This document shows, one piece after another, positions 14,688 to 34,795 of a stretch of 64,000 nucleotides of DNA; position 1 is the first letter of the stretch, and each line of letters starts with the position of its first letter. This DNA is from Methylotenera mobilis 13. GTDB taxonomy: Bacteria; Pseudomonadota; Gammaproteobacteria; Burkholderiales; Methylophilaceae. Where the stretch lies: assembly GCF_000384255.1 (NCBI RefSeq), contig NZ_KB913035.1:2185093-2249092 (forward strand), in the 5' to 3' direction. A model generated the notes under the pieces. The model made no database searches and was not told where the DNA came from. It saw only the letters and a list, made by a program, of their open reading frames with translations. A program made the translations under genes and the position numbers.

Positions 14688-17291
14688 TCAAACCGCCTCA
14701 GTAATCGGAATGACTTTTTTACCGTTAGAAAGTGCTTCTAAAGCTGGCGTGTAATCTGTCATTTGATCGAAATTCAGGTATTTGTAGATTTCAGCCGTAT
14801 TCGCAAGTTTATTGCCTACCGTCTCCAAATACTCTGCATGCGTCGGCATGCGGCCTAACTTAGCACAAACTGCTGCCAATTCAGCTGAACCCAAATAAAC
14901 GCGCGCGTCTTTACCCATACGGTTATCAAAGTTACGCGTACTGGTTGAAAACACAGTGGCTTTATCTGCCACACGCGCTTGGTTACCCATACATAATGAA
15001 CAACCTGGCACCTCTGTTCTGGCACCTGCAACACCAAACACAGAGTAAACACCTTCATCACGCAATTGCGCCTCATCCATACGGGTCGGTGGTGCAATCC
15101 ACAAACGTGTTGGAATGCCACCAGAACCTTCTAATACTTTAGCCGCTGCACGGTAATGGCCGATATTCGTCATACAACTGCCGATAAATACTTCGTCAAT
15201 CTTATCGCCAACCACTGCTGTTAATGGTTTGATGTCATCTGGGTCATTCGGGCAAGCGACTAAAGGCTCAGTAATCGTGTTGAGGTCAATTTCAATCACA
15301 TGTGCGTACTCAGCATCTTTATCCGCCTCTAATAACTCAGGCTTAGCCAACCAAGCTTGCATGCTTGCGATACGACGTTGCAGTGTGCGTGGATCTTGGT
15401 AGCCGTTATCAATCATGTTTTGTAGCAACACGATATTTGAAGTCAGGAACTCAATCACAGGTTCTTTATTTAATTTTACGGTACAACCGTTCGCTGAACG
15501 TTCAGCTGAGGCATCGGCAAACTCAAACGCTTGCTCTACTTTCAAATCTGGTAAACCTTCAATTTCCAAGATTCTGCCGTTAAATACATTCTTTTTACCT
15601 TGTTTACCAACGGTTAAAGTGCCTTCTTGGATGGCAGCGTAAGGAATTGCATTCACTAAGTCACGCAAGGTAATGCCAGGTTGCATTTCACCTTTAAAAC
15701 GCACTAAGACAGATTCAGGCATATCAAGCGGCATTACACCCATGGCTGCAGCAAAGGCAACTAAGCCAGATCCAGCCGGGAACGAAATACCAATCGGGAA
15801 ACGGGTATGTGAGTCGCCACCGGTACCAACTGTATCAGGCAACACCATACGGTTTAACCATGAGTGAATCACACCATCGCCTGGGCGTAAGCTGACGCCA
15901 CCACGGCTACTCATAAACTCAGGCAAGCTATGCTGTAATTTAATATCCACTGGTTTTGGATAAGCAGCTGTGTGGCAGAAGCTTTGCATCACTAAATCAG
16001 CACTGAAGCCCAGACACGCCAACTCTTTAAGCTCGTCACGCGTCATACCGCCAGTCGTATCTTGTGAACCAACCGTTGTTGCCTTAGGCTCGCAATATGC
16101 GCCTGGACGCACGCCTGTACCTTCAGGCAGGCCACAAGCTCTACCCACCATTTTCTGCGCCAATGTGTAGCCTTTGCCAGTATCTTTTGGTGCGATGGAT
16201 TGAATAAATAAATCTGATGCTGGCAAACCTAGCGCATGACGTGCATTGGTAGTTAAACCACGACCAATAATCAATGGGATACGGCCGCCAGCACGTACTT
16301 CATCTGGCATTGTCGTTGGTGCTAATTCAAACGTGCTAATCACTTCACCTTGTTCATTTAATACCTGTCCTGCATAAGGTTTAATGGTAATCACGTCACC
16401 CATTTGCATTTTTGATACATCACATTGAATCGGCATCGCGCCAGAATCTTCTGCAGTGTTAAAGAAAATCGGCGCTATTTTGGTGCCTAGAATAACCCCA
16501 CCAGTGCGTTTATTAGGAATATTAGGAATGTCATTACCCATAAACCACTGCACTGAGTTGATCGCTGACTTACGTGATGAGCCAGTACCGACCACGTCAC
16601 CCACATAAGCAAGTGGTAAACCTTTTTCTTTTAAGGCTTCAATGGTTTTTAAACCTTCTGGCATTTTATTCACCAGCATTGCTTTTGCATGTAATGGAAT
16701 ATCTGGGCGGCTCCAAGCCTCTTGCGCAGGGCTTAAATCATCCGTATTAGTTTCACCATCCACTTTAAATACAACGACTTTAATTTCGTCCGCTAATATT
16801 GGCGCATTGGTAAACCATTCGGCATTCGTCCAAGACTCAATGAGTTTTTTAGCATGCGCGTTGCCTGCTTTCATTTTTTCATCAACATCATGGAATGCAT
16901 CAAACATGAGAATCGTTTGAGACAATGCCTTTACAGCTGCGTCTGCCATGGTTGGGTTCGTCGCCGACAGATCTAATAGCCCGACTAATGCTTGAACATT
17001 GTAGCCACCAAGCATGGTGCCCAACAAAGCAACCGCTTGCTCAGCGCTCACTAAAGGCGACGAAGCTTTGCCGTGCGCGATGTCTGACAAAAATGCCGCT
17101 TTCACATAGGCAGCCTGATCCACACCTGCTGGTACGCGATTTTCAAGCAAATCGACCAACAGTTTTTCTTCACCCGCTGGCGGATTTTTAAGTAGCTCGA
17201 CAAGTTGTGCAACTTGTTCTGCTGATAATGGTAATGGAGGAAGTTGTTGTGAAGCACGCTCTTGTACGTGCGCTGCATAGGCTTTTAACAT
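14688..17291 (-). CDS. acnB: aconitate hydratase B / 2-methylisocitrate dehydratase
   Basis: A 4Fe-4S hydro-lyase of 867 residues, the usual AcnB length. It interconverts citrate and isocitrate, and in many bacteria also hydrates 2-methyl-cis-aconitate to 2-methylisocitrate. AcnB domain order is visible: N-terminal HEAT-like region, swivel domain ([17 protein letters not shown]) and catalytic core with DSHTRFPIG, the cluster cysteine in [10 protein letters not shown] and two more in GCSLCMGNQ. It supplies the step between PrpD and PrpB, both encoded about 15 kb away in the same locus. It is 137 bases downstream of a small EF-hand gene and ends in a good terminator. Confidence 0.97.
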
Positions 17292-17428
17292 AACGGTTTT
17301 CTGCTTAGATTTCTAGTTAAATAAAATTGTGATTATTATAAACTAGCTTAACTTAATGTTGATTAGTGCATATATGATGATTCACGCATTGATATTAAGT
17401 GACCATCTATAAAATCAAATCAGCAAAG

Positions 17429-17740
17429 CTAGTTTGTTAAATGTAATGTGCTTGCAAATGGTGTGCCACAGCTAGTGCCTTTAATCGAAGCTTCAAATCT
17501 TTCTAAGACCTCACTCTGATAACCCTTGCCATGTTTAAGCTCTAAAAAGGCACGGACTTCGCTGGCATCAGCAAATCCGTTTTTATCTGTGTCCATCGAC
17601 ACCACATTATCTTCTACTGTGGGACCGATATATTTGCCTTGCGTGTCGGTCAATACATCAAGCACTGTAGCTGCATGCACATGGAACGTCGGTATCAAGC
17701 AAACCAATATCAATAGCTTTGTCATTTGTGATTTCATCAA
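17429..17740 (-). CDS. small exported EF-hand protein
   Basis: 103 residues: signal peptide (about 1-23, ending VHA) and one EF-hand-like calcium loop, MDTDKNGFADASEVRAF, with D, D, N, D and E at the expected liganding spacing. A cysteine lies near the C-terminus. The gene sits between fum and acnB, in the same direction, with gaps of 92 and 137 bases. I see no link between a calcium-binding periplasmic protein and these TCA enzymes; it may simply be lodged here. Confidence 0.75.
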   Translation of the reverse strand: MMKSQMTKLLILVCLIPTFHVHAATVLDVLTDTQGKYIGPTVEDNVVSMDTDKNGFADASEVRAFLELKHGKGYQSEVLERFEASIKGTSCGTPFASTLHLTN

Positions 17741-17832
17741 ACTACTCCTTAATATGAGTTAAGAGTGATAATCCAAGCAATAATTCATTAAAGCATCACT
17801 CATCAAACATAATGTATTCAGTCTATCACTTA

Positions 17833-19374
17833 TTAACTCAATGGATGAATCACTATCACCTCATCTGACGCTTTACGCTGCGCTATTTTATGCTTCCATT
17901 CCGCAGGGCCAGTAGTGTGCACTGAACTACCGCGACTATCAACGGCTACTGTGACTGGCATATCCTGCACAGTAAATTCGTAAATCGCTTCCATGCCTAA
18001 ATCAGCAAAGGCTAGGACTTCAGCTTTTTTAATGGCTTTACTTACCAAGTAAGCCGCTCCACCCACCGCGGTTAAATAAACGGATTGATATTTAGCAATG
18101 GTTGCTATCGTCTCTTCACCTCGCTCAGCTTTGCCAACCATGCCTAACAAGCCTGTTTGGCCCAACATGATTTCTGTAAAATCATCCATACGTGTAGCTG
18201 TGGTAGGGCCTGCTGGACCGACCGCTTCAGCACCGACTGCATCTACCGGGCCTACGTAATAAATAAAACGGTTAGTAAAATCTATTGGTAGCTTTTCGCC
18301 TTTTTGCAACATGTTCACCATACGCTTATGTGCTGCATCTCGGCCTGTTAGCAGTTTGCCATTGAGCAACAACGTCTGCCCTGGTTGCCAAGCATTTATC
18401 TCTTGCTGAGTAATGGTATCGAGATTTACCCGTAAAGACTGATCGCTAGGTGCCCAATTCACATCAGGCCAATCTGCCAAATTCGGCGCTTCTAGTGCGG
18501 CTGGACCACTGCCATCCAACTCAAAATGCACATGTCTAGTGGCCGCGCAATTAGGAATAATCGCCACAGGCAGACTCGCAGCATGGGTAGGATAGTCTAA
18601 TATTTTCACATCCAGCACGGTAGTTAGGCCGCCTAAGCCCTGCGCGCCTACACCTAGATTATTGACTTTCTCAAATATCTCCAACCTCAATGCATCAATC
18701 TTATTTTGTGCACCTTTTGCTTTCAGTTCATGCATATCAATTGGCGCCATCAGTGACTCTTTAGCTAACAGCATGGCTTTCTCAGCGGTACCGCCGATGC
18801 CAATACCTAGCATACCAGGGGGACACCAGCCAGCGCCCATGGTTGGCACTACCTCTAATATCCAATCGACAATGCTGTCGTTAGGGTTAAGCATGGCAAG
18901 CTTTGCTTTATTTTCACTACCGCCGCCTTTGGCTGCAATGCTGACTTCAACCTTATCACCCGCTACCAGTTCTACATGCACCACAGCAGGCGTATTGTCT
19001 TTGGTATTTGCACGCTTACCAGCTGGGTCACTCACAATCGAAGCGCGCAGCTTATTTTCCGGTAACAAATAAGCGCGACGCACACCTTCATTCACCATCT
19101 GCTCCAATGAAAGCTCAGCATCAAAATGTACATTCATGCCGACTTTTACAAACGCCACTACTATGCCAGTATCTTGACACAATGGGCGCTTACCTTCTGC
19201 ACACATGCGTGAGTTGGTCAGTATCTGTGCAATTGCATCTTTTGCCGCTGGTGATTCTTCCTGCGCATAAGCAGCTGCTAATGCTTGGATAAAATCGGCT
19301 GGGTGATAGTAAGAAATATATTGCAAGGCATCTGCAATGCTCGCAATAAAATCTTCTTGTTTAATCTTAGTCAT
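17833..19374 (-). CDS. fumA: fumarate hydratase, class I (4Fe-4S)
   Basis: Iron-sulfur fumarase of 513 residues that hydrates fumarate to malate. The N-terminal domain carries the cluster cysteine in RPLCQDTGIVV and the segment GGGSENKAKLAML; a further conserved cysteine is in WCPPGMLGIGIGG. The C-terminal beta-type domain contains GRDAAHKRM and the motif YVGPVDAVGAEAVGPAGPTT. It follows the acyl-CoA synthetase by 8 bases. In this locus it turns the fumarate made by SdhCDAB into malate, which the malic enzyme at the head of the run can convert to pyruvate. Confidence 0.95.
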   Translation of the reverse strand: MTKIKQEDFIASIADALQYISYYHPADFIQALAAAYAQEESPAAKDAIAQILTNSRMCAEGKRPLCQDTGIVVAFVKVGMNVHFDAELSLEQMVNEGVRRAYLLPENKLRASIVSDPAGKRANTKDNTPAVVHVELVAGDKVEVSIAAKGGGSENKAKLAMLNPNDSIVDWILEVVPTMGAGWCPPGMLGIGIGGTAEKAMLLAKESLMAPIDMHELKAKGAQNKIDALRLEIFEKVNNLGVGAQGLGGLTTVLDVKILDYPTHAASLPVAIIPNCAATRHVHFELDGSGPAALEAPNLADWPDVNWAPSDQSLRVNLDTITQQEINAWQPGQTLLLNGKLLTGRDAAHKRMVNMLQKGEKLPIDFTNRFIYYVGPVDAVGAEAVGPAGPTTATRMDDFTEIMLGQTGLLGMVGKAERGEETIATIAKYQSVYLTAVGGAAYLVSKAIKKAEVLAFADLGMEAIYEFTVQDMPVTVAVDSRGSSVHTTGPAEWKHKIAQRKASDEVIVIHPLS

Positions 19375-19382
19375 CGTATGAT

Positions 19383-21020
19383 TTATCGTGTTGATTTTGC
19401 TATCGCAATGGTTGAGTTAATATCTTTACGTAAGATTTTACCATTCTTAGTACGCGGGAAATCTTTTGCCAGATAAACCGTTTTAGGCGATTTATAAGCC
19501 GCAAGATGCTGTTTACCAAACTGTAATAAGTCATCTGGGGTGACGCTTACTTCTGGTTTCAAAATCACATAAATCACCACGAGTAGTTTATCTTTTTCAA
19601 TTTCCTCGCCAATCGCCGCGCAATCTGCCACATCAGGATGTCCTTTGTACACACGCTCAATTTCATATGGCGATACACGATACCCAAAACTTTTAATGAT
19701 GTCGTCTTTACGTCCTAAAAACCAAATATAACCATCAGCATCGTATTTTGCATAATCTCCGGTAAAAAAGTAGCCATCATGCTTATATTTTTTCGTTTCA
19801 TCGTCTAAATTCCAATAGCGCAAAAACAAGCCTGGATCAGTATCTGTGACGCAAATCATGCCCTCTTCACCTGTTGCAACGGGTTCACGTGTGTCTGGAT
19901 TTAACAATTGAATATCGTGCCCAGGTTGTGGAAACCCTGCTGACCCTGCACGGATAGGGCGAAACTTGCTTTGTGACAAGTAGTATGAAAACTCACTCAT
20001 CCCCACTGCCTCATAGATATCCAAACCAAAACGTTCACGCCATTGGTTTAAAACCTCATCTGACAAATGCTCACCCGCACTCATGTAGTGGCGCATGCTT
20101 GGCAGCTGTTCTTTTGCCGTGGTGGTTTTCTGTAATATCTGGCGATAGATGGTAGGCACGCCAATAAAAATAGTCGCCTGATGTTTTTGTATGAGATCTA
20201 GCCATTTTTGCGCATCATTTTTACCCTCATGCACAATCACAGTTTTACCTAAGTACAAAGGATCCATCAAACCAGTACCTAGCACGTAAGTCCAGTTAAA
20301 CTTGCCAGAGTGCATGATTCTATCTTGCACTTGCTCACTGTAATTAAACCAATACTCTGCTGCAGGCTGACGTCCTAATAAAGCGCGGTGTGCGTGCAGC
20401 ACGCCTTTTGGATAACCTGTAGTCCCTGAGGTGTAAACTAGATAAGCTGGGTCTTCAGCTTTAGTGATGGGCATCTCTTCGACTGCTCCCACGCTTGCCA
20501 TCGTCAACTCAAGGTCATGCACCGCCAGTTTACTAGGCGCAATTGCCTGTGTTAGCTGTGTTAATAGCACATGTTTTAGGTTTGGCGTATTGCCCAAAGC
20601 GCCTTCTAGCTGAGACTGCATCGCACTCCATGCGGTAGCATCCGTCACCAGCACTGCAGCCCCTGAATCTTTGGCTAAATAAGCCACTTCTTCAGCCGTG
20701 AGTAAGGTGGAGGTTGGCACTGAAATGGCACCCATTTTCATGGCACCTAAAAAAGCAATTGGATAATCCAAGCTATTAGGTAGACGAATTAATACACGAT
20801 CGCCGACTTTAACGCCTAAATCACGCAATACTTGCGCAAAAAGATTAGTTTTAAGTGCTAATTCTGCAAAAGTAATCGTAGAGGTACCTAACGCATCATC
20901 TTCTACAATCATGGCAATTTCATTGGCTTGTGCAGTGCCTAAATGCTTATCAGAACAAGCGACACCAATATTAAAATATTCTGGAATTTGCCAATCCCAC
21001 TTTGGAAAGTCAGTCAACAT
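19383..21020 (-). CDS. acyl-CoA synthetase (AMP-forming)
   Basis: A 545-residue adenylate-forming enzyme that would activate a carboxylic acid to its CoA thioester with ATP. Motifs are intact: P-loop YTSGTTGYPKG, the A5 region EAVGMSEFSYYLS, A7 FTGDYAKYDADGYIWFLGRKDD and the catalytic lysine in KNGKILR near the C-terminus. It looks closer to medium-chain or benzoate-type ligases than to acetyl-CoA synthetase or PrpE. Its start overlaps the stop of a CitE-type lyase (TAATG), so the two are coupled and probably act in one pathway. A propionate, methylmalate or mesaconate-like acid is a reasonable guess for substrate; the sequence alone does not decide. Confidence 0.9.
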   Translation of the reverse strand: MLTDFPKWDWQIPEYFNIGVACSDKHLGTAQANEIAMIVEDDALGTSTITFAELALKTNLFAQVLRDLGVKVGDRVLIRLPNSLDYPIAFLGAMKMGAISVPTSTLLTAEEVAYLAKDSGAAVLVTDATAWSAMQSQLEGALGNTPNLKHVLLTQLTQAIAPSKLAVHDLELTMASVGAVEEMPITKAEDPAYLVYTSGTTGYPKGVLHAHRALLGRQPAAEYWFNYSEQVQDRIMHSGKFNWTYVLGTGLMDPLYLGKTVIVHEGKNDAQKWLDLIQKHQATIFIGVPTIYRQILQKTTTAKEQLPSMRHYMSAGEHLSDEVLNQWRERFGLDIYEAVGMSEFSYYLSQSKFRPIRAGSAGFPQPGHDIQLLNPDTREPVATGEEGMICVTDTDPGLFLRYWNLDDETKKYKHDGYFFTGDYAKYDADGYIWFLGRKDDIIKSFGYRVSPYEIERVYKGHPDVADCAAIGEEIEKDKLLVVIYVILKPEVSVTPDDLLQFGKQHLAAYKSPKTVYLAKDFPRTKNGKILRKDINSTIAIAKSTR

Positions 21021-22150
21021 TATAAGAGCACTCCATATGGCCAGTTTTCTCGCACAACCTGTGCAGGTAGCAGTTGTAAAACATGCAAAGCAAATTCCAT
21101 ATCACTGGATTTAAGCGCACGTAATGCATGTGCTCTTAGTAATGTTTGCAAAGCTTTACCAAACATTGGTGGATCTAACATTTCGCCATCAAATTTAATG
21201 GCACCACCAAGCAACGCATCCGCTTCAATCGCCGCTTTTAAAATACTTACCTTTTGTGCAACCTCAGTTGGAGAGGGTGTGTAAGCTGTTTTACAAAGGT
21301 GGATATGTCCAGGGTGAATCACTTGCTTACCAGTTAAACCCATTGCCGACTCTTTGCAAGCATGCTTGTACACAACACGCGACTCGTTATCGCCATGCAA
21401 GTCCAGCCAGCGACGTACATCATGCGGCTCTAGGTATTTTTCTGGCATTGCACTAGCGCCTATAAGTGTTTCCACCCCGCCAATCACGCCCTTACCGGCA
21501 ATCCGTGCTTCAAACATCAATGTATTCATGTAAAACTGCAACTCATCAATCCAGTTTTCTGGTGTGATTTGAATGCCCATCGCTTTGGAAAAGTCATGAA
21601 TCCCGAATACCACATGCTTAACCGTGGTGTACTGCATTAAATCAGGGGCTATCTTTAATGATTTTGGATGCTCAATAATCGGTTGAATCGTAATTTTAGG
21701 ATTCACACTGAGCAAGAAGCTTGATAAATCACGCACCTCTGCTGCACCATAAGCTTCACCTGCTTTGGCTAACATCACCACATCGATGTAATCACCCATG
21801 TCGCGCACCAACTGCATATCTAGCTCGTACTCATCTGTTCTAAATGAATTAGCTCGAATAGCAACAGTGACACGCTCGTTCATTTTGCGTAGCAGAGGTA
21901 ACTCTTGCCGCAACAAATCACGGCTCATTGCTTTTTGGCGGCAACCGTCTTCCAAGTCAAAAATAAGCGTATGTGCATGCGTAAAGTGCGCGTGTTTTTT
22001 CATACGCGCAGACGCTTGCTCCATATCCTCATAAATACCCAAACTAGGCGCATATTTAACTGGCGGATAATATAGCTGTATGCCAGGCCAATAATCGCCT
22101 AGCGCTTTGGCGTCGAAAGTGATTGGCTCTTCACCTATATGCATCATCAT
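21020..22150 (-). CDS. HpcH/HpaI aldolase / CitE-superfamily CoA-ester lyase (1)
   Basis: A 376-residue lyase of the CitE/malyl-CoA-lyase superfamily, longer than CitE itself because of an N-terminal and a C-terminal extension. The metal and substrate residues of the family are present: FDLEDG, the arginine in AIRANS, the glutamate in IIEHPKS and the aspartate in FGIHDFSKAMG. Such enzymes split or form malyl-, methylmalyl- or citramalyl-CoA. The start is ATGATGATG one base after sdhE, and the stop overlaps the acyl-CoA synthetase start. This position, between succinate dehydrogenase and the ligase, argues for a role in a dicarboxylate pathway. Confidence 0.85.
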   Translation of the reverse strand: MMMHIGEEPITFDAKALGDYWPGIQLYYPPVKYAPSLGIYEDMEQASARMKKHAHFTHAHTLIFDLEDGCRQKAMSRDLLRQELPLLRKMNERVTVAIRANSFRTDEYELDMQLVRDMGDYIDVVMLAKAGEAYGAAEVRDLSSFLLSVNPKITIQPIIEHPKSLKIAPDLMQYTTVKHVVFGIHDFSKAMGIQITPENWIDELQFYMNTLMFEARIAGKGVIGGVETLIGASAMPEKYLEPHDVRRWLDLHGDNESRVVYKHACKESAMGLTGKQVIHPGHIHLCKTAYTPSPTEVAQKVSILKAAIEADALLGGAIKFDGEMLDPPMFGKALQTLLRAHALRALKSSDMEFALHVLQLLPAQVVRENWPYGVLL

Positions 22151-22151
22151 C

Positions 22152-22457
22152 TTATTCAGCCTCCTCTAGTTTATTTAATCTGGCAGTCTTTATTTTGTAA
22201 ATCATTGCATTTCTTGCTTTTTCTTTAGCACCAGTTGCCTTAGCAATCTCACTTGTATTGTTAATCAACGCCCAGAACTCATTATCTGGTAATGCGAGCA
22301 AAGCGTCGAACACTTGCAACTCATCTAAGGTCAGTGCATCGTATTGATAGAGCACAAAGTTTTGCAGCACGATATCAAGCTCCAGCAAGCCTCTTCTACA
22401 GCGCCACGCAAAGCGTCTTTGTTCTGCATCTTTTAAGATTTCTGCATTCATCATCAT
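22152..22457 (-). CDS. sdhE: FAD assembly factor SdhE
   Basis: A 101-residue protein of the SdhE/Sdh5 family, which promotes covalent attachment of FAD to the SdhA flavoprotein. The family motif RGxxE is present in RCRRGLLELD. It lies 6 bases downstream of sdhB, the usual neighbourhood. The start consists of three ATG codons in a row followed by AAT; which one is used cannot be seen, and the difference is two residues. Confidence 0.93.
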   Translation of the reverse strand: MMMNAEILKDAEQRRFAWRCRRGLLELDIVLQNFVLYQYDALTLDELQVFDALLALPDNEFWALINNTSEIAKATGAKEKARNAMIYKIKTARLNKLEEAE

Positions 22458-23201: not shown

Positions 23202-23202
23202 T

Positions 23203-23405
23203 TGGACACCTCGAAAAACGTTAGATATTGGGATGAAGTGCACCCGCAAGGGGTGTGTCCGTCAAGACGGCTGCTAAAGCAGCTCGGCTTAACGCCAAAG
23301 GCGCACGGAACTTAGTAACTGAGACAGTACAATGGGTACGGCGAGGTTGCGAGTGACGTGCAACGCAGCAATTCGCCCAAGAAATAAGGTTTTTAGAAGT
23401 GTCCA
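23203..23405. mobile_element. 203-bp MITE-like element between sdhA and sdhB
   Basis: The gap between sdhA and sdhB starts TGGACACCTCGAAAAAC and ends with the imperfect complement of the same sequence (GTTTTTAGAAGTGTCCA). The terminal repeats extend about 38 bases with roughly 75 percent identity. The core has four small hairpins in a row at 23241-23303: CACCC/GGGTG, CCGT/ACGG, GCTGC/GCAGC and CGCC/GGCG. No reading frame resembles a transposase and no target duplication is evident. It starts right after the sdhA stop and supplies the ribosome site of sdhB. A structured operon spacer is the alternative. Confidence 0.6.
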
Positions 23406-25521: not shown

Positions 25522-25532
25522 AAGCGTGGCTT

Positions 25533-25922: not shown

Positions 25923-27113
25923 TTAAGCTGCTCCAGCCACTGCTTTTGAAACACGTGCCAACAGGCGCGGGTCAAATGGTTTAGGAATAATGTATGTTTT
26001 TCCAAACTCAAGCGATTGGAGATTGTAAGCAGCCAACACTTCAGCTGGCACTGGTTCGCGAGCAAGTTCACTAAGGGCATGTGCCGCGGCAATCTTCATT
26101 GCTTCTGTGATTTGTTTCGCTTTAGCGTCTAATGCACCTCTAAATAAATAAGGAAAGCACAGTGCGTTATTGACCTGATTTGGAAAGTCACTGCGCCCAG
26201 TAGCCATTAAAATATCATCACGAATCGCATGCGCTACACTCGGTAGCACTTCAGGATCAGGGTTAGCCAGCGCAAAAATAATTGGATTTTTTGCCATGCC
26301 TTTTATCAAGCTAGCATCGAGTGCATTTTTGGCAGAGACGCCAATAAACACATCTGCATTTAGCATTGCATCTGCTAATGTTTTTATAGCGCTTGGCACA
26401 ATAGCTAGCTCACGATTATTATCATGTAGGTCAGGCCTGTCAGTATCCAGCACACCTGTTCTATCTACCATCGTGATGTGATTTGCCCCCATACTTTTGA
26501 GTAGTTTGGCACAAGAACACCCTGCCGCACCCGCTCCCAAAAACACGATCTTGGCAGTTGCCAATGTTTTACCTTGCAGTTCAAGCGCATTCAACATGGC
26601 TGCAGCAACAATCACTGCCGTACCGTGCTGATCATCATGAAACACCGGAATATCCAGACGTTTTTTAAGCTCATTCTCTATATAAAAACAATGTGGTGCG
26701 GCAATGTCTTCTAAATTTATGCCGCCAAATGTTGGAGAAATATTTACTACCGTCTGAATAAACTCATCAGGTGTCTTTGCATTAATTTCTATATCAAATA
26801 CATCAATCCCGGCAAAGCGTTTAAACAATACAGCTTTACCTTCCATCACAGGCTTACTCGCTAGAGGCCCCATATTACCTAAGCCCAATACAGCCGTACC
26901 ATCGGTAATCACTGCCACTAGGTTTCCTTTATTGGTGTATTTATAGGCATTACTTGCATCAGCATGAATCTCCCTGACAGGTTCCGCAACACCTGGCGTA
27001 TAGGCAAGCGACAAATCATCCTGTGTTGTGCAAGGCTTTGATGACTCCACACTCAGCTTTCCTGGTATTGGAAACTGATGGTAATCAAGTGCTCGTTTTT
27101 TTAGATCGTCCAT
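25923..27113 (-). CDS. NAD(P)-dependent malic enzyme
   Basis: Oxidative decarboxylation of malate to pyruvate. This 396-residue form has the malic N-terminal domain ([15 protein letters not shown], the [13 protein letters not shown] nucleotide-binding loop, and EDIAAPHCF for metal) and a Rossmann domain ([15 protein letters not shown]), but lacks the phosphotransacetylase-like extension of MaeB. Whether it uses NAD or NADP is not decided here. It stands between the GntR regulator (39 bases upstream) and sdhC (no gap). With sdh and fum it makes a succinate-to-pyruvate route in one operon, which suits the succinate and pyruvate output of the methylcitrate cycle. Confidence 0.93.
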
Positions 27114-27152: not shown

Positions 27153-27887
27153 CTACTCCAACTCACTCATATAATGATGATCATCGGTTAAACACAAACC
27201 TAATCGCCACTCCATCGGCTTATCCCCATAGGTAAACGAAACGCGCTCAATACTTAACAGCGGAAATCCTTCTTTCAGTCCAAGCGCTTTTGCTACTTCT
27301 TGGTCAGCACCAACTGCTTTCAAGCGCTCCTCAGCACGAATCATACGTATGCCAAATTGTGATTCGTACATGCTATACATTGAGCCATTGCAATCTTCGA
27401 CCTTATTACCGTTTAAACCTTTAAAAGTGGCAGCTGGCACAATTAGATGGTCGTAAATGATTGGACGGCCAGAAAAAGTTAATAAGCGCTTCACCTCTAT
27501 CGTTGCTGCGCCCGCTTTAATCTCCAAAATCTTAGCAATATAGTTATCTGCTTTCGACTTAACGCAGGAAATTAGCTCGTTATGTAACAGCTCCTTTTTT
27601 CCATCAACCGCAGTTAACCTTAAAAATCTAAGCTTAGTCACCTCTTCACTATGGGTTGCGACAAAAGTACCTTTTCCTTGCCGGCGAATCAAAATATTTT
27701 CGGCAGAGAGGCTATCAATAGCCTTGCGCACAGTCCCTTGACTCACTTTGTAGCGAGCAGCCAATTCAATTTCACTAGGGATCACATCACCAGGACCCCA
27801 TTCACCACCAATCAAACTCTGTGTAATTAACACTTTAATCTGATCATATAAAGGTCTGTAACTAGGTGAACTCAATTGCTTATCCAT
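27153..27887 (-). CDS. GntR-family regulator with UTRA domain (HutC type)
   Basis: A 244-residue repressor-type regulator. The winged HTH covers about residues 10-77 (GDVIPSEIELAARYKVSQGTVRKAIDSL, then RRQGKGTFVA), and a UTRA ligand domain follows from about 95, with RLLTFSGRPIIYDHLIVP and LLSIERVSFTYGDKPMEWR. I start it at ATG 27887 because this gives the normal N-terminus; a TTG at 27920 would add 11 odd residues. It is divergent from the prp-type run and upstream of the malic enzyme, so it likely controls both directions and itself. The ligand is unknown; a CoA ester or a C3-C7 organic acid would fit. Classical sigma54-type PrpR is absent. Confidence 0.92.
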   Translation of the reverse strand: MDKQLSSPSYRPLYDQIKVLITQSLIGGEWGPGDVIPSEIELAARYKVSQGTVRKAIDSLSAENILIRRQGKGTFVATHSEEVTKLRFLRLTAVDGKKELLHNELISCVKSKADNYIAKILEIKAGAATIEVKRLLTFSGRPIIYDHLIVPAATFKGLNGNKVEDCNGSMYSMYESQFGIRMIRAEERLKAVGADQEVAKALGLKEGFPLLSIERVSFTYGDKPMEWRLGLCLTDDHHYMSELE

Positions 27888-27981
27888 AATTTTTAAACCT
27901 ATGCATTTGGTTGTTATCAACTTGCTTAATTTCCATGATTGAATTTATATCATGCAAAATAAAAATAGTCTAGTGTTTTAT

Positions 27982-28002
27982 ATCTTATATAAGACATAAG
28001 AT
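27982..28002. promoter_or_regulatory. overlapping palindromes, candidate GntR operator
   Basis: TCTTATATAAGA at 27983-27994 is a perfect 12-base palindrome. A second symmetry, ATCTTAT (27982-27988) with ATAAGAT (27996-28002), overlaps it. It sits just upstream of the -35 box of the rightward promoter and about 95 bases upstream of the GntR start, where an autoregulating divergent repressor would bind. Confidence 0.55.
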
Positions 28003-28007: not shown

Positions 28008-28037
28008 TTGACACTTATTTAATTTCATCTATATAAT
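28008..28037 (+). promoter_or_regulatory. sigma70-type promoter of the rightward prp run
   Basis: TTGACA at 28008-28013 and TATAAT at 28032-28037 are both perfect consensus, with an 18-base spacer. It lies 32 bases before the first start codon. With such a strong core promoter the operon is expected to be held off by a repressor. Confidence 0.75.
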
Positions 28038-28069
28038 CAAATCCACATCTTTAGAAAGTCATATTGATT

Positions 28070-28951
28070 ATGGAATATCACATCAGACCACGGCGCTCTA
28101 TGCTTTACGTACCAGGTTGCAACAAGCATTATCTTGATCGCGCACGCACACTAGCTGCCGACTCTGTCATTTTGGATCTGGGTGACCCGATTCTTGTCGA
28201 TGCAAAAGAGCAATCAAGAGCCAATGTAGTAGAAGCTATCCAACAAGGTGGCTATGGCTCAAGAGAAGTGGTCGTGCGTGTAAACAATCTGGACTCAGCT
28301 TGGGGACATGATGACATTCGCGCTGTCGCCAACATTGGCGCCAATGCGATTTTGTTTCCAAACATAGAGTCTCGTGAAGACGTACTCAAAGCACAATCAT
28401 ATTTAGATGAAGCTGGTGGCAGCCATATGCCTATTATGGTAATGATTGAAAGCCCACTTGCTGTGTTGAATGCTAAAGAAATTGCAGCTGCATCAGACAG
28501 AATCAGCTGCATTGTAATGGCAACCTCAGATTTAATCTCTCAACTACATGCTCATGTGACACATGAGCGCTCTGCCATTCTCACTTCACTATCATTGGTG
28601 ATTTTAGCGGCGCGCGCTTATGGCAGAAGCGTGATAGATGGCATCACTAGCGACTTTAAAAACATGCATTCTTTTGAATATGCATGCAGACTGGGTCGCG
28701 ACATGGGTCTAGATGGAAAGTCTCTCGTTCACCCTGCCCAAATTGCTTACTGCAATGATGCATACACACCAAAAGCGACCGAAGTAGCTAACGCAAGACT
28801 CATTATTACCGCGCTGAAAGAGGCGAATGAAGCAGGCCGCGGCACAGTGGTTGTGAACGATAAATTAGTAGAGCATCACCACATAAAAGCGGCACAACGC
28901 TTAATTAAACTACATGAAGCAATTGTTGAGCTTGAAGAAGAATACATATAA
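28070..28951 (+). CDS. CitE-type CoA-ester lyase (2), with altered DLED motif
   Basis: A 293-residue protein closest in layout to citrate lyase beta subunit (CitE): RPRRSMLYVPGCNKHYLDRA at the start, arginine in VVRVNN, glutamate in MIESPLAVLNA, aspartate in ATSDLIS and the C-terminal VHPAQIAYCNDAYTP. The first acidic motif, normally DLEDAV, reads DLGDPI. The glutamate there is lost, which could change metal or substrate handling. No CitD or CitF is nearby, so it is not part of a citrate lyase complex; malyl-, methylmalyl- or citramalyl-CoA are possible substrates. ATG 28070 is taken; a TTG at 28064 is closer to the AGAAAG site. Confidence 0.85.
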   Translation: MEYHIRPRRSMLYVPGCNKHYLDRARTLAADSVILDLGDPILVDAKEQSRANVVEAIQQGGYGSREVVVRVNNLDSAWGHDDIRAVANIGANAILFPNIESREDVLKAQSYLDEAGGSHMPIMVMIESPLAVLNAKEIAAASDRISCIVMATSDLISQLHAHVTHERSAILTSLSLVILAARAYGRSVIDGITSDFKNMHSFEYACRLGRDMGLDGKSLVHPAQIAYCNDAYTPKATEVANARLIITALKEANEAGRGTVVVNDKLVEHHHIKAAQRLIKLHEAIVELEEEYI

Positions 28952-30031
28952 ATGGCGACCATCATGCACGCAAACAAAACCTCATCAGGACGCTTTTTTG
29001 AACATTTCACTTTAAATGAAGTGATTCAACACGCCACCCCACGTACCATTACTGAAGGCGATGTTGCGCTTTACATCGCATTAACCGGCAGTCGCAACCC
29101 ATTACATTGTAGCGAGCCATTTGCGCAAAGCGTGGGCTACCAATCTGCGCCGATAGATGACTTACTTACGTTTCATATCGCTTTTGGAAAAACAGTCCCT
29201 GATATTTCAGTGAACGCAGTGGCAAATTTAGGGTACGCGGATGTACGTTTCTTACAACCTGTATCAGTAGGGGATACATTAAGCACGTCGAGCCAAGTAA
29301 TAGGGCTTAAACAAAACTCCAATGGCAAAAATGGAGTGGTCTATGTACGGTCAACCTCAGTGAATCAGCATCATCAACCAGTTTTAAGCTGGGTCCGCTG
29401 GGTAATGGTACATAAAAACGACGCCAATGCGCCAGCGCCCGAGACCACAATCCCTGAATTACCAACATTTGTTGCAGCAAATCAATTAAACATCCCAGCA
29501 TACTTAACTGCTAGCAACTTTGACCAACAAGCAACAGGTGGCCAATTCTATTGGGATGACTACCAAGCAGGCGAACGTATTAATCACGCAGCAGGCATGA
29601 CCATCAACCAAAGTGACCATTCATTAGCTACGCGTCTTTATCAAAATAACGCCCGTTTGCACTTTGATGCACATTTAATGCAATCCTCCTCATTCGGCAA
29701 ACGTTTAGTGTACGGCGGTATTGTCATTTCCGCATGTAGGGCCCTGAGTTATGAAGGACTAGAAAATGCCATCAGTATTGTTGCCATTAACGCTGGCACC
29801 CATGCCAACCCGTGCTTTACTGGCGACACCATCTATACGTTTACCGAAGTATTAGACTGCTGGGAACTGCCCAATAGAAGCGACATTGGCGCACTCAGGT
29901 TGCGCATGGTTGGCATCAAAAACATGAGCTCAGCCGATTTAGCAGAAACCAAACAATTTAATAGTTACCACCCTAATGTAGTACTTGATCTTGATTACAC
30001 GGTACTTATGCCACGCAAAGGAAATCAATAA
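28952..30031 (+). CDS. MaoC-type double hot-dog hydratase, mesaconyl-CoA hydratase-like
   Basis: A 359-residue protein of two MaoC/hot-dog halves. The N-terminal half closely recalls mesaconyl-CoA hydratase (Mch) of the ethylmalonyl-CoA pathway, from memory: SGRFFEHF, HATPRTITEGDVALY, DDLLTFHIAFGKTVPDIS and NAVANLGYADVRF. The second half has the matching AGMTINQSDHSLATRLYQN and FGKRLVYGGIVISA. Mch interconverts mesaconyl-CoA and beta-methylmalyl-CoA. The gene starts directly after one CitE-type lyase and its stop overlaps the start of another (TAATG). A lyase acting on beta-methylmalyl-CoA is its natural partner, giving propionyl-CoA and glyoxylate. Substrate is inferred, not proven. Confidence 0.85.
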   Translation: MATIMHANKTSSGRFFEHFTLNEVIQHATPRTITEGDVALYIALTGSRNPLHCSEPFAQSVGYQSAPIDDLLTFHIAFGKTVPDISVNAVANLGYADVRFLQPVSVGDTLSTSSQVIGLKQNSNGKNGVVYVRSTSVNQHHQPVLSWVRWVMVHKNDANAPAPETTIPELPTFVAANQLNIPAYLTASNFDQQATGGQFYWDDYQAGERINHAAGMTINQSDHSLATRLYQNNARLHFDAHLMQSSSFGKRLVYGGIVISACRALSYEGLENAISIVAINAGTHANPCFTGDTIYTFTEVLDCWELPNRSDIGALRLRMVGIKNMSSADLAETKQFNSYHPNVVLDLDYTVLMPRKGNQ

Positions 30032-31029
30032 TGGCTGTGACTTTAACCCAAAAACACCCGAATGAAGCGCTGTTTGGCGGCGAAAAACCATTCCCACTCA
30101 TCCCTGCCTGCGAGCACTTTGCCGGCAGTGAAAAACTCATCTTAAAAGCACTATCACTACAAGATAGCATTGGCGCTGTTTTTGATATCACTTGCGACTG
30201 CGAAGATGGCGCAGCTGCTGGACAAGAGCGTGAACATGCAGAAATGATTGTCCGCGTATTAAATTCAGATGTGAATAAACATAAGATGGCTGGGGCACGT
30301 ATTCACGATTACACCCATCCGGGATGGAAGCTAGACATCGACATCTTAGTTGCCGGTGCCGGCAAGGTACTGAGCTATATCACGATTCCTAAATGTACGG
30401 ATATCAGCCAAGCCAGCGAGATGATTCAATATGTTCAGAAAGTGGCTAAAGAAAATAACATTGATCGTGTAATACCAATCCATATACTCATTGAAACCCA
30501 CGGTGCACTCAAACAAGTACATGAAATTGCCGCACTACCATGGTTACAAGTATTGGATTTTGGACTGATGGACTTTGTCAGTGCGCATCACGGCGCAATC
30601 CCTGCAAGCGCGATGCGTAGTCCTGGTCAATTTGAGCACAAGCTATTATCTCGTGCCAAAACGGAAGTAGTCGCTGCGGCCCTTGCCAATGGTGTAGTGC
30701 CAGCACATAACGTGACGCTCGATTTAAAAAATGTAGAGACCACATTAAATGATGCTAGCCGTGCACGCAATGAGTTTGGCTTTATGCGGATGTGGAGCAT
30801 CTATCCCACGCAAATCCAAGCTATTGTGGATGCAATGAAACCTAACTTTGATGAAGTGATTGACGCTGCCAACATCTTGCTTGCTGCACAAAAAGCAGAT
30901 TGGGGACCGATTCAATACAACGGTGAGTTACACGACCGCGCTACCTACAGATACTTTTGGGAAGTACTACAAAAGGCCAGACTCACCAGGGTAGAAATTT
31001 CTGCAGAAGCAACAGCAGCATTTTTCTAA
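30031..31029 (+). CDS. HpcH/HpaI aldolase / CitE-superfamily CoA-ester lyase (3)
   Basis: A 332-residue third member of the CitE/malyl-CoA-lyase superfamily in this locus. Key residues: CDCEDGAAAG for the first acidic motif, arginine in GARIHD, glutamate in HILIETHGAL and aspartate in DFGLMDFVSAHHG. The C-terminal part keeps MWSIYPTQIQAIVDAM in place of the usual IHPxQI. It is coupled to the mesaconyl-CoA-hydratase-like gene by a TAATG overlap, which makes beta-methylmalyl-CoA or malyl-CoA a likely substrate. It is followed by 128 bases with a hairpin before prpB. Confidence 0.85.
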   Translation: MAVTLTQKHPNEALFGGEKPFPLIPACEHFAGSEKLILKALSLQDSIGAVFDITCDCEDGAAAGQEREHAEMIVRVLNSDVNKHKMAGARIHDYTHPGWKLDIDILVAGAGKVLSYITIPKCTDISQASEMIQYVQKVAKENNIDRVIPIHILIETHGALKQVHEIAALPWLQVLDFGLMDFVSAHHGAIPASAMRSPGQFEHKLLSRAKTEVVAAALANGVVPAHNVTLDLKNVETTLNDASRARNEFGFMRMWSIYPTQIQAIVDAMKPNFDEVIDAANILLAAQKADWGPIQYNGELHDRATYRYFWEVLQKARLTRVEISAEATAAFF

Positions 31030-31060
31030 ACAACTAACCATCTTGCTACCTAACACTGAT

Positions 31061-31081: not shown

Positions 31082-31157
31082 GCAGGATGGATTTGAATGC
31101 AACGCACGCTGAAAAAGCAATCTTGCGTGATTAAATGAACTAAAGGAAGTCAGCAAC

Positions 31158-32042
31158 ATGAGCAAACAAACGACAGCAGGTGCACGTTTCAGAGCCGCAT
31201 TAAGCGCCGAAACACCTTTACAAATCATAGGTGCAATCAACGCTTATCATGCACTACTCGCTACACAAACAGGCTACAAAGCCTTGTACTTATCTGGCGG
31301 CGGAGTTGCTGCAGGCTCATTAGGCATTCCAGATCTGGGCATATCAACCCTTGAAGATGTACTGATTGACGTACGCAGAATCACAGACGTCACCGAAACA
31401 CCTTTACTGGTGGACATTGACACGGGTTTTGGTGGTGCATTTAATATCGCACGCAGCATCAAAAGTATTATTAAAGCAGGCGCGGGCGCAGTGCATATTG
31501 AAGACCAAGTGCAAGCTAAACGCTGTGGACATCGCCCCAACAAGGCGATTGTCAGCCAAGCTGAAATGGTAGACCGCATTAAAGCGGCTGTTGATGCAAA
31601 AACTGACCCTGACTTTGTCATTATGGCGCGAACCGACGCACTGGCTGTCGAAGGCTTGCAATCAGCAATCGACCGTGCATGTGCATGTGTTGAAGCTGGT
31701 GCGGACATGATCTTTCCAGAAGCTATTACTGAGTTAAGTATGTATCAACAATTTGCAGATGCAGTCAAAGTACCAGTACTTGCCAACATTACTGAGTTTG
31801 GCTCCACGCCATTATTCACCGTAGATGAGCTACGCAGCGCCAATGTGAGCATGGTGCTATATCCACTTTCAGCATTTAGAGCAATGAATCAGGCCGCACT
31901 TAACGTATACCAAGCCGTACGCAAAGATGGCACACAAGCAAATGTGGTAAACACGATGCAAACACGTGCAGAACTCTACGAACACCTCAATTATCACGCT
32001 TATGAGCAAAAGCTTGACGAACTATTTAAGGGAGAAAAGTAG
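31158..32042 (+). CDS. prpB: 2-methylisocitrate lyase
   Basis: Last enzyme of the methylcitrate cycle: splits 2-methylisocitrate into pyruvate and succinate. The 294-residue sequence is of the isocitrate-lyase/PEP-mutase superfamily, with the catalytic cysteine C123 in KRCGH, the metal-site DIDTGFGG and the segment [17 protein letters not shown] typical of PrpB. An AAGGAAG ribosome site precedes the ATG. prpC follows after one base. Succinate made here feeds SdhCDAB encoded in the divergent run. Confidence 0.96.
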
Positions 32043-32043
32043 C

Positions 32044-33198
32044 ATGACACACCCCACCACTACTCAAGAACCTAAAAAGAAAAAAGGCGTAGCGCTTGCT
32101 GGCATTTCGGCTGGAACCACTGCGATATGTACTGTTGGCCACACAGGCAACGACCTGCACTACCGCGGCTACGACATTATAGAACTTGCTAAATCTGCAA
32201 CGTTTGAGGAAGTGGCCCACCTCCTGATTCATGGTGAACTGCCTAACAAAGCTGAGCTAGCCGCGTACCACCAAAAACTCAAGAAGTTACGCGGTCTGCC
32301 AGATGGTTTAAAAAAGGTATTAGAGCAAATCCCAGCGAACGCACACCCAATGGATGTGATGCGCACCGGCTGTTCTATGCTAGGTACACTAGAGCCTGAA
32401 GCAAGCAACCGTAATATTGAAGACGCAAAAAACTTGGGCGATAGACTCATTGCCTGTTTTGGCTCTATTTTGATTTATTGGTACCACTTTAGTCACAATC
32501 AACAACGTATTGAAGTGGAAACAGACGAAGATTCTATTGCCGCGCATTTCTTACATTTACTGCATGGTAAAAAACCGTCAGAACTACATATCAGCGCAAT
32601 GAATACATCGCTGGTACTTTACGCAGAGCATGAGTTTAATGCCTCAACATTTACGGCGCGTGTGGTAGCAGGCACCTTATCTGACATGTATTCATGCATC
32701 ACTGGTGCGATTGGTGCGCTACGTGGGCCTAAACACGGAGGCGCAAATGAAGCGGCCATGGAAATCATTGAGCGCTATAAAACAGCCGATGAAGCCGAAG
32801 CCGACATCATGCAACGTATGGCGCGTAAAGAAATCATCATTGGTTTTGGCCACCCCGTCTACACCATAGCCGACCCTAGAAATGAGTCAATCAAGGCTGT
32901 TAGTCGTAAGTTATGTGAAGATAGCGGTAATATGATGCTATTTGATGTTTCAGCACGTATTGAAGAAACCATGTGGCGCGAGAAAAAAATGTTTCCTAAC
33001 TTGGATTGGTATAGCGCGTCCAGTTATCACATGATGGGCATCCCTACTGGCATGTTCACCCCTATTTTTGTGATATCACGTACCACAGGCTGGGTCGCGC
33101 ATGTGATTGAACAGCGTATTGATAACAAAATTATCCGTCCAAACGCTGAATATGTTGGGCCTGATAATCGCCCTTACGTGCCACTAGAAAAACGTTAA
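32044..33198 (+). CDS. prpC: 2-methylcitrate synthase
   Basis: Condenses propionyl-CoA with oxaloacetate. At 384 residues it is of the short citrate-synthase type typical of PrpC. Catalytic regions are in place: [25 protein letters not shown] and [19 protein letters not shown] set the start at ATG 32044 ([10 protein letters not shown]), which has GGGAG upstream; an open frame reaching back to 31966 only overlaps prpB. A gap of 133 bases with alternative hairpins separates it from prpD. A side activity as citrate synthase with acetyl-CoA is common for such enzymes. Confidence 0.95.
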
Positions 33199-33230
33199 CA
33201 CTTAACTTCTATGCTTCTGTCATTTCCGCT

Positions 33231-33279
33231 AAAACTGAATCCAGTTTTTTATCCTCCGTTTAAATATGGATTCAGTTTT
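33231..33279 (+). terminator. alternative hairpins between prpC and prpD
   Basis: A long hairpin pairs AAAACTGAATCCA (33231-33243) with TGGATTCAGTTTT (33267-33279). A shorter one, AAAACTG/CAGTTTT at 33231-33248 with loop AATC and a following T-run, uses the same left arm and looks like a small terminator. The two exclude each other. The site could lower prpD expression relative to prpBC or act as an attenuator. Confidence 0.5.
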
Positions 33280-33331
33280 GGTGGGAGTGACGAACTCAAT
33301 TAAATTACTTTCATATTAAAGGTCCTAAAAT

Positions 33332-34795
33332 ATGTCGTCGCACATCTCAAACGTCCGTCCCGCACCTGACCAAGTCATTGTTGATATTGCTAATTATGTT
33401 GCAGATTTCGAAATCAATAGCGACGAAGCATACGACACTGCACGTAACTGCCTTATGGATACATTAGGTTGTGGGTTTGAAGCGCTAGACTATCCAGCCT
33501 GTACCAAATTACTCGGTCCAGTCATTGCTGGTACAGTTGTGCCAAACGGCGCAAAAGTGCCAGGCACTAACTTTCAGCTCGACCCCATCCTTGCGGCATT
33601 CAATATCGGTGCAATGATTCGCTGGTTAGATTTTAACGACACATGGTTAGCTGCAGAATGGGGGCACCCATCCGATAATCTAGGTGGTATTTTGGCGGTG
33701 GCAGATTATATGTCGCGTAAAAATATTAGCGAAGGAAAAGCACCGCTGACGGTAAAAGACGTACTCACTGCCATGATCAAAGCGCATGAAATTCAAGGCG
33801 TACTTGCCCTTGAAAACAGCTTTAATCGTGTGGGCTTAGATCACGTTATTTTAGTGAAAATCGCCTCTACCGCTGTGGTGACCAAACTACTAGGCGGAAA
33901 TAAAGAGGATATTATCAATGCCGTTTCTAATGCGTTTGTTGACGGCCAAAGCTTACGTACTTATCGCCACAGTCCGAATACCGGCTCGCGTAAGTCTTGG
34001 GCGGCTGGCGATGCCACCTCACGCGCAGTAAGGCTTGCTTGGATGACAATGCAAGGCGAAATGGGCTATCCATCTGCGCTCACCGCAAAAACATGGGGGT
34101 TCTACGACGTGCTGTTTAAAGGCAACGCGTTTAAATTCCAACGTGCTTACGGCTCTTATGTCATGGAACAAGTGCTTTTCAAAATCTCGTTCCCTGCAGA
34201 GTTCCACGCACAAACAGCGGTGGAATGCGCCTTGCAGCTCAATAAAGAAGTCGGCAACCGTTTGCAAACTGTAGAACAAATTGCAGAAATCGACAAAATC
34301 GTCATCACAACCCATGAGTCTGCAATCCGCATTATTGATAAAACAGGGCCACTCGACAACCCTGCCGACCGCGACCATTGCATTCAGTACATGGCAGCCA
34401 TAGGCCTATTAAAAGGCAACCTGACTGCTCAAGATTACGAAGATGAAGCTGCCGCAGACCCACGCATTGATGCGATTCGTAGCAAAATGAGCTGCGTAGA
34501 AAAAGTAGAATACACCCGCGACTACCTAGACCCAGAGAAACGCTCAATCGCCAACGCCATTCAAATCTTTTTCAAAGATGGCACGAGCTCAAGCAACATT
34601 GCCGTAGAGTACCCAATTGGCCACCGCCGTCGCCGTGGCGAAGGCATCCCTGAGTTAGTAAAAAAATTCAAAGTGAATTTAGCACGCAGATTTGATACGA
34701 AGAAACAGGAAGAAATTTTAGCGTTATGCTTAGCGCAGAAAACATTAGAAACGATGCCTGTTAATACTTTTGTAGATATGCTGTGGCAAGGTTAA
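33332..34795 (+). CDS. prpD: 2-methylcitrate dehydratase
   Basis: Iron-independent MmgE/PrpD-family dehydratase of 487 residues, as in enteric PrpD (about 483). It removes water from 2-methylcitrate to give 2-methyl-cis-aconitate. Family signatures: [63 protein letters not shown] and the closing [10 protein letters not shown]. The presence of PrpD rather than AcnD/PrpF means that hydration to methylisocitrate must come from AcnB, which is encoded in the same locus. It is the last gene of the rightward run. Confidence 0.96.

Follow-up and report, generated by a model that had tools for sequence, protein, structure and literature searches.

Members of the family Methylophilaceae carry a gene set that was described in nine genomes as 'Methylcitric acid cycle genes (prpCBD, cyl1, maoC, cyl2, gntR, mdh, sdhABCD, cyl3, prpE, fum, can)'. 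Its structure was called strongly conserved, and the family was noted to have no 2-oxoglutarate dehydrogenase (PMC4109929). The cluster was found to be highly expressed in situ, with gntR among the most over-expressed genes, and its metabolite was called unknown in 2013 (PMC3728764); its distribution is given in PMC6794327. In Rhodospirillum rubrum, a citramalate cycle has been proposed in which acetyl-CoA and pyruvate are converted via citramalate, mesaconate, mesaconyl-CoA and methylmalyl-CoA to propionyl-CoA and glyoxylate (PMC8307300). SdhR is a HutC-subfamily regulator with the operator TCTTATGTCTTATATAAGACATAAGA (PMC4494728). Here we analyze the cluster of Methylotenera mobilis 13 in a 64,000-nucleotide stretch of DNA (the window; 2,185,093-2,249,092 of the 2.80-Mb single-contig genome), with genes called from open reading frames (ORFs) and Pfam/NCBIfam profile searches.

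The cluster itself is already known as the propionate-type (methylcitrate) cluster of freshwater methanol-using bacteria, and the gene list of our locus is identical to the printed one (PMC4109929, PMC3728764, PMC6794327). The printed mdh and prpE are here a malic enzyme (mae) and a ligase (acs) that matches no PrpE model among its best 25 families, and the function was left open in those papers. We propose that the locus is an SdhR-controlled methylcitrate cluster with a core, cyl3-acs-fum plus cyl1-mch-cyl2, that forms a citramalate-cycle-like segment wired to the methylcitrate cycle. We favor this reading with a confidence that falls somewhat short of even. A first-pass annotation of the same DNA had joined the methylcitrate cycle to a mesaconyl-CoA module. 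Its gene families, hydratase, two of its lyases and its regulator stand, while its views of Cyl1, of oxaloacetate supply and of the relatives have to be revised.

The proposed pathway and its enzymes

The core would interconvert acetyl-CoA and pyruvate with propionyl-CoA and glyoxylate. Cyl3, assigned by inference, would form citramalyl-CoA from acetyl-CoA and pyruvate. CoA would be released from citramalyl-CoA, possibly by Cyl1, and the fumarase, acting as a mesaconase, would produce mesaconate. Acs would then activate mesaconate to its CoA ester, Mch would convert this to β-methylmalyl-CoA, and Cyl2 would cleave the latter into propionyl-CoA and glyoxylate. The first-pass annotation gave no source of mesaconyl-CoA; a class I fumarase together with Acs could supply it from citramalate. 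PrpC, PrpD, AcnB and PrpB would convert propionyl-CoA and oxaloacetate to pyruvate and succinate. Succinate dehydrogenase (Sdh), fumarase and a chromosomal malate:quinone oxidoreductase (Mqo) would restore oxaloacetate, and malic enzyme would tie malate to pyruvate. Because pyruvate and oxaloacetate would both be regenerated, the loop would on paper net acetyl-CoA to glyoxylate plus four electrons.

Mch is identical to 4e3e, which we take to be the Chloroflexus enzyme, at 198 of 350 positions (57%) over its full length, and it matches 8hgn, named 'Beta-methylmalyl-CoA dehydratase', along its ~350 residues. This full-length double-hotdog similarity identifies it as a mesaconyl-CoA hydratase homologue, as had been suggested. 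It reaches 78.9 of 560 bits with the haloarchaeal 2-methylfumaryl-CoA hydratase model NF041625, under the cut-off, and is not filed there. The catalytic Arg, Glu-Asp pair, Glu, Asp and lid Asp are kept in all 27 rows of the Cyl3 alignment, and the catalytic residues of Cyl2 do not vary in any row that has letters at those positions (39-41 of 42). Cyl2 and Cyl3 are thus, by sequence, CitE-type lyases with intact catalytic residues. The earlier count of three such lyases holds for these two and fails for Cyl1, which falls in a thioesterase subgroup and has an altered active site. A structure prediction for Cyl3 (mean predicted local distance difference test (pLDDT) score 64.3) was left unused. 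The three PF03328 proteins of the locus are the only ones in the genome (E<=0.001).

Acs reaches no equivalog cut-off among its best 25 of 106 NCBIfam families. The PrpE models TIGR02316 and NF007815 lie outside these 25, below ~195 bits against cut-offs of 827 and 955, and the nearest solved structures are benzoate-CoA ligases. We suggest that Acs is a mesaconate (or citramalate) CoA ligase. These matches also bear on plain propionate catabolism, in which Acs would be a propionate-CoA ligase, as the printed name prpE implies, and the Cyl proteins and Mch minor accessories. That the genes are described in print as belonging to a methylcitric acid cycle (PMC4109929, PMC3728764, PMC6794327), and that they co-occur almost perfectly with prpD, speaks for it, but the missing PrpE matches among the best 25 families and the occurrence of acs-cyl3 and mch-cyl2 without prp genes make it very unlikely. 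As for the fumarase, class I enzymes that act as mesaconases by hydrating mesaconate are in print, and by analogy it is possible that the enzyme at the locus does so.

Cyl1 and its active site

Members of the CitE-like superfamily share a lid Asp and a Glu-Asp pair that orders Mg water molecules; only in the malyl-CoA thioesterase cluster is the lid Asp replaced, by Glu (PMC3832036). Glu270 of Cyl1 aligns with Asp299 of 4l9y, and the lid Asp-to-Glu switch is thus present. The lid Glu is also found in the Cyl1 homologues encoded beside mch in Alphaproteobacteria; in R. rubrum, the malyl-CoA thioesterase (Rru_A1200) and mesaconyl-CoA hydratase (Rru_A1201) genes are neighbors, with SdhB at Rru_A1205. 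From Glu270, which these homologues share, and from the R. rubrum neighbor pair, we place the predicted origin of Cyl1 in the malyl-CoA thioesterase (Mcl2) subgroup and not among plain lyases; to call it a lyase, as is usual, is probably a mistake.

The Glu of the Glu-Asp pair, in turn, is Gly (Gly40) in all 29 rows of the Cyl1 clade and Glu in all 43 comparison rows; the latter were picked by that Glu, hence it is the clade result that constitutes the test. Ser130, Ala153 and His272 also occur in 29/29 clade rows, where the others have Thr (43/43), Gly (43/43) and Leu (42/43), respectively. The clade has a Shimodaira-Hasegawa-like approximate likelihood ratio test (SH-aLRT) support of 99 and is recovered in the same way after the two trait columns are dropped from the tree, in a rebuilt tree that omits one short row. 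A divergent gntR accompanies it in 27/29 rows, which are those where the stretch reaches far enough. The AlphaFold2 model of Cyl1 (pLDDT 93.2) has the malyl-CoA lyases 5ugr and 4l9y as its nearest folds, and a fold search returned nothing beyond this expected fold. Cyl1 departs from the malyl-CoA thioesterase subgroup at the Glu-Asp pair and is not filed as a functional member; the change could mean altered specificity or loss. A homologue on a very long branch (L075:8948-9883) differs at both of these active-site positions (LHES, lid Gln) and is possibly decayed. Plasmid records contain cyl1 only at <60% identity (321 records) and no cyl3 at E<=1e-30.

The subgroup of Cyl1 raises the possibility of a malate branch. 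The fumarase would produce malate, Acs malyl-CoA, and Cyl3 acetyl-CoA and glyoxylate in a serine-cycle-like manner, or a lyase and a Cyl1 thioesterase would together act as an apparent malate synthase, with mch-cyl2 serving a separate need. The R. rubrum gene pair and the absence of malate synthase from 7/7 Methylophilaceae tested are consistent with this. However, Gly40 argues against the thioesterase, the linkage to mch is left unexplained, and an acs-cyl1 fusion found at L127 would unite malyl-CoA-making and malyl-CoA-hydrolysing activities. We consider the malate branch improbable.

A bolder form of our proposal makes the Methylophilaceae locus part of a closed acetyl-CoA-oxidising cycle, in which the SdhR-linked Cyl1 clade, its metal site remodeled (Gly40, Ser130, Ala153, His272), would have a new activity, such as citramalyl-CoA hydrolysis. 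Pyruvate and acetyl-CoA would pass via citramalate, mesaconate and β-methylmalyl-CoA to glyoxylate and propionyl-CoA, and the methylcitrate cycle with Sdh, Fum and Mqo would restore pyruvate and oxaloacetate. Such a cycle would need no 2-oxoglutarate dehydrogenase, NAD-malate dehydrogenase or malate synthase, and no isocitrate-lyase bypass or B12-dependent propionyl-CoA route (neither gene set was searched for). We regard this form as rather doubtful.

Operator and gene order

The gntR product has HutC-type domains, and the site between the two runs shares 24 of its 26 bases with the SdhR operator in print (PMC4494728); the regulator is, as judged from these features, SdhR-like. The center of the published operator is the 12-bp palindrome TCTTATATAAGA, which is present in the gntR-cyl1 gap of 60/62 stretches. 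With 13 known duplicates removed it is in 48/49, the remaining one having one mismatch, and further duplicates between genomes may remain behind these counts. In the window, the operator is the sole site within 2 mismatches of the 12-bp core. A sigma-70-type promoter lies 13 bases past the core; its 12/12 consensus score is shared by 25 of the 48 relatives scored, and promoter-like sites are no more numerous in the gap than in shuffled sequences. In two Methylophaga-labelled loci, L082 (8842, 9005) and L084 (8837, 9001), two exact cores lie ~163 bases apart in the gap.

The operator also links genes that are not adjacent. In ten genomes of another family (f23), cyl3 and acs lie together at least 98 kb from the mch locus or on another contig (10/10). 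The fumarase gene joins them in 9/10, and in each of the three sets that were typed the unit adjoins acsA. In 9/10 of these genomes the first aligned cyl3 codon is preceded, at a distance of 64-170 bases, by an exact SdhR core, and a shuffled control gave 0 sites in 200 sequences. Because the core precedes this unlinked unit, both halves are linked without adjacency, and the cyl3-acs and mch sets appear to be one regulon. This agrees with the earlier suggestion that one regulator serves both runs. A TIGR00645-family protein of unknown function is encoded between acs and fum in two f23 units (L156:6983-7657, L161:12386-13159).

Of 187 Methylophilaceae genomes, 111 have the hydratase and prpD, five the hydratase alone, three prpD alone and 68 neither. 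All eight exceptions are draft genomes (completeness 76-91%). Being related, the genomes do not amount to 187 independent tests, but the near-perfect co-occurrence indicates that the arrangement is not due to chance. The idea that relatives lack such a route does not hold, the cluster being in 16 of the 24 genera of the family and already in print. Order-wide, 162/399 genomes have some match, and full-length relatives (E<1e-100) are few.

Gene-order types were taken from 20 stretches and 80 named loci; the stretches are 12-21 kb, 'without prp' means within them, and the labels of metagenome-assembled genomes may be wrong. Methylophilaceae have the order of the window (type a). In f23, prpDCB-cyl2-mch-cyl1 is divergent from gntR-sdh-gltA-like, with sdh in 9/10 stretches (type b). 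Gallionella-type loci have acs-cyl3-gntR divergent from cyl1-mch-cyl2 in a stretch without prp (type c). Thiobacillus-, Tepidiphilus- and Sulfurospirillum-labelled records have cyl3-acs-cyl1-mch-cyl2 without gntR, often with fum (type d). Methylophaga-labelled records have acs-cyl3-mae-gntR divergent from cyl1-mch-cyl2-prpBCD in a stretch without sdh (type e), and 23/80 loci, mostly from Alphaproteobacteria, have cyl1-mch-sdh (type f). The order cyl3-acs-cyl1-mch-cyl2 is found without prp at L054, L055, L058, L074, L076, L077, L080, L081 and L127, four of which also have fum, and we therefore treat the module as a unit of its own. At L127:7426-9972 (labelled Sulfurospirillum sp. UBA6810), acs and cyl1 share one 848-aa frame. 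Two Cupriavidus loci (L114, L123) have mch-cyl2 without cyl1, cyl3 and acs; a CaiB-type protein near the pair (L123:13172-15178) has succinyl-CoA:mesaconate CoA-transferase as its best NCBIfam match, at 465 of 700 bits and below the cut-off. Beside mch-cyl2-prpBCD and sdh, the place expected for cyl1 is taken in family f12 by a malate dehydrogenase gene (L057:10587-11570).

The surroundings of the stand-alone modules bear on a function envisaged by the first-pass annotation, the use of a C5 dicarboxylate, here taken up from outside. Mesaconate, citramalate or itaconate would be activated by Acs and degraded via mch-cyl2 and the methylcitrate cycle. The locus encodes all enzymes required, and a class I fumarase of Burkholderia xenovorans is in print as serving growth on mesaconate, but the locus has no transporter to support such growth. 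The flanks of stand-alone modules (10 proteins, five loci) are mostly housekeeping and signalling genes with one transport-type match, an ABC ATPase 1.2 kb from acs at L077, and the module is kept in obligately autotrophic-type lineages (Gallionella and Thiobacillus labels). The Rip models stay far under their cut-offs: Mch scores 118.5 of 340 bits with RipB, and Cyl1, Cyl2 and Cyl3 score 117.7, 54.2 and 48.1 bits with the citramalyl-CoA lyase RipC/Ccl model NF038242 (cut-off 375). Together these points make an external C5 substrate decidedly improbable.

The locus consists of two divergent runs, acnB to gntR on the minus strand (14688-27920) and cyl1 to prpD on the plus strand (28064-34795; see table). 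All genes named by the first-pass annotation were recovered at their coordinates by ORFs and Pfam/NCBIfam. AcnB, SdhA, PrpB, PrpC and PrpD score above curated equivalog cut-offs, and the methylcitrate cycle is complete by gene (PrpC, PrpD, AcnB, PrpB), as had been claimed. Spacings described as mostly under 12 bases barely are so: of 16 same-strand gaps, nine (overlaps among them) measure <=8 bases and seven span 28-156. This count includes a 103-aa TTG-start ORF between acnB and fum (17429-17740) that has no NCBIfam match and may not be a gene; without it the figure is 9/15 and the acnB-fum gap is 541 bases. For cyl1 and gntR, translation likely starts at in-frame ATGs (28070 and 27887, respectively) rather than at the upstream TTGs. 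The family match of prpC starts at codon 36 (~32071).

Table. Features of the locus, by position in the window
Feature	Position	Strand	Evidence
acnB	14688..17291	-	TIGR00117 1500.7 bits, cut-off 1287.2
fum, single-chain class I (Fe-S) fumarase, possible mesaconase	17833..19374	-	PF05681 + PF05683; class I fumarase homologues in PDB; adjoins cyl3-acs in other genomes
acs, AMP-forming acyl-CoA synthetase (prpE in print)	19383..21020	-	PF00501/PF13193
cyl3, CitE-like lyase, suggested citramalyl-CoA lyase	21020..22150	-	PF03328 38.1 bits; catalytic residues intact
sdhE, flavinator of succinate dehydrogenase	22152..22457	-	PF03937
sdhB	22464..23249	-	PF13085, TIGR00384
sdhA	23406..25166	-	TIGR01816 953.7 bits, cut-off 727.35
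sdhD	25174..25539	-	PF01127
sdhC	25533..25922	-	PF01127
mae, malic enzyme, 396 aa (mdh in printed gene list)	25923..27113	-	PF00390 + PF03949
gntR, HutC-subfamily, SdhR-like regulator	27153..27920	-	PF00392 + UTRA PF07702; operator as published for SdhR
SdhR-type operator, agrees with the published one at 24/26 bases; its core is a perfect 12-bp palindrome (27983-27994)	27976..28001		sequence match
sigma-70-type promoter, 12/12 consensus positions, reads into cyl1	28008..28037	+	consensus scoring
cyl1, CitE-like, malyl-CoA thioesterase subgroup (lid Glu270), Gly40	28064..28951	+	PF03328 153.8 bits
mch, MaoC/mesaconyl-CoA-hydratase-like	28952..30031	+	4e3e E=5.7e-130; 8hgn E=3.5e-114
cyl2, CitE-like lyase, suggested β-methylmalyl-CoA lyase	30031..31029	+	3qqw E=6.7e-154, 223/327 identical
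prpB, methylisocitrate lyase	31158..32042	+	NF008455 548.3 bits, cut-off 353
prpC, 2-methylcitrate synthase	31966..33198	+	NF009006 686.7 bits, cut-off 550
prpD, 2-methylcitrate dehydratase	33332..34795	+	NF006943 888.1 bits, cut-off 575

Metabolic context and relation to described systems

The genome of M. mobilis 13 has no match to sucA (TIGR00239; other 2-oxoglutarate oxidoreductases were not searched for), in agreement with the incomplete citric acid cycle noted before. A search with the Ldh/Mdh C-terminal domain found no NAD-malate dehydrogenase. Mqo is encoded at 1.76 Mb and, as predicted from its gene, can fill the oxaloacetate gap of the locus; oxaloacetate supply is thus missing from the locus, as had been stated, and not from the organism. 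No malate synthase was found either. Among 25 genomes, malate synthase is absent from 11 (the seven Methylophilaceae and four with a stand-alone module) and present in 14. We considered cyl3-acs as its replacement and dropped the idea, as 10 of these 14 genomes, all f23, also carry cyl3. Other frames were rejected as well. Crotonyl-CoA carboxylase/reductase, for the ethylmalonyl-CoA pathway, and methylaspartate ammonia-lyase (PF07476), for the methylaspartate cycle, score over cut-off in 0/25 genomes, both searches giving many weak superfamily matches below it, including in our genome. For the glyoxylate half of the 3-hydroxypropionate bi-cycle, a CaiB-type mesaconyl-CoA transferase was sought in our genome only, and family III CoA-transferases (CoA_transf_3, PF02515) gave no match.

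The same segment could run in reverse. Cyl2 would join propionyl-CoA and glyoxylate, Mch would form mesaconyl-CoA, and Fum, Acs and Cyl3 would lead to acetyl-CoA and pyruvate, providing a second propionyl-CoA outlet beside the methylcitrate cycle. Malyl-CoA lyase reactions are reversible (PMC3832036), this direction was preferred for Arcobacter (PMC2147049), and our genome has no canonical malate synthase to use glyoxylate. However, the lack of any CoA_transf_3 protein in our genome means that there is no Chloroflexus-type mesaconyl-CoA transferase, the route would pass via free mesaconate with ATP spent in Acs, and paired propionyl-CoA outlets look redundant. We judge the reverse direction unlikely.

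Several points weigh against the citramalate-cycle-like segment that we propose. The gene families, residues, shared operator and absences come from sequence; all substrates, the direction and the CoA-release step are inferred, and the enzyme activities are predicted. The fumarase may act on fumarate only, no model among the best 25 predicts the Acs substrate, and Cyl1, without a residue described as absolutely conserved, may be inactive or otherwise employed. In addition, 68/187 family genomes manage without the cluster, L154 lacks an operator even with one mismatch allowed, and f23 carries these genes alongside malate synthase (10/10), indicating that the module is not simply its replacement. 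Arcobacter butzleri, with a homologous set, was reported not to grow on acetate or propionate, and the segment was drawn there in the opposite direction (PMC2147049).

Our study provides a concrete, assayable proposal for a highly expressed Methylotenera cluster and identifies its movable core genes. If the loop runs in this way, abundant methylotrophs of freshwater and the sea would be able to oxidise or assimilate acetyl-CoA although their citric acid cycle is incomplete. We found no mesaconyl-CoA reading of the Methylophilaceae cluster in the literature searched, which leaves out many subscription papers. The linkage in trans and the change in the Cyl1 clade are, as far as we searched, not described in it either (the 2012 SdhR paper lies outside this literature).

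Besides the printed Methylophilaceae cluster and SdhR, three described systems come close to the locus. In A. butzleri, ab1917-ab1921 encode a CitE protein, a ligase, a hydratase, a second CitE protein and a class I fumarase, alongside a methylcitrate pathway, and the same chemistry was proposed in 2007 (PMC2147049). The ligase AB1918 is fused to a CitE domain, which differs from our locus and agrees with the acs-cyl1 fusion at L127. AcnD/PrpF stand in for PrpD, the enzymes listed include 2-oxoglutarate:acceptor oxidoreductase/dehydrogenase and malate dehydrogenase, and the parts of that paper seen describe no divergent SdhR arrangement. The second half of the ethylmalonyl-CoA pathway also places a mesaconyl-CoA hydratase gene beside that of a malyl-CoA-thioesterase-type protein, often near sdh (23/80 loci), but crotonyl-CoA carboxylase/reductase over cut-off is absent from all 25 genomes tested. 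The R. rubrum citramalate cycle has the same series of steps as we propose for the locus (PMC8307300). There, propionyl-CoA is processed via methylmalonyl-CoA and activation is by a CoA-transferase, whereas our locus would use the methylcitrate cycle and an AMP-forming ligase.

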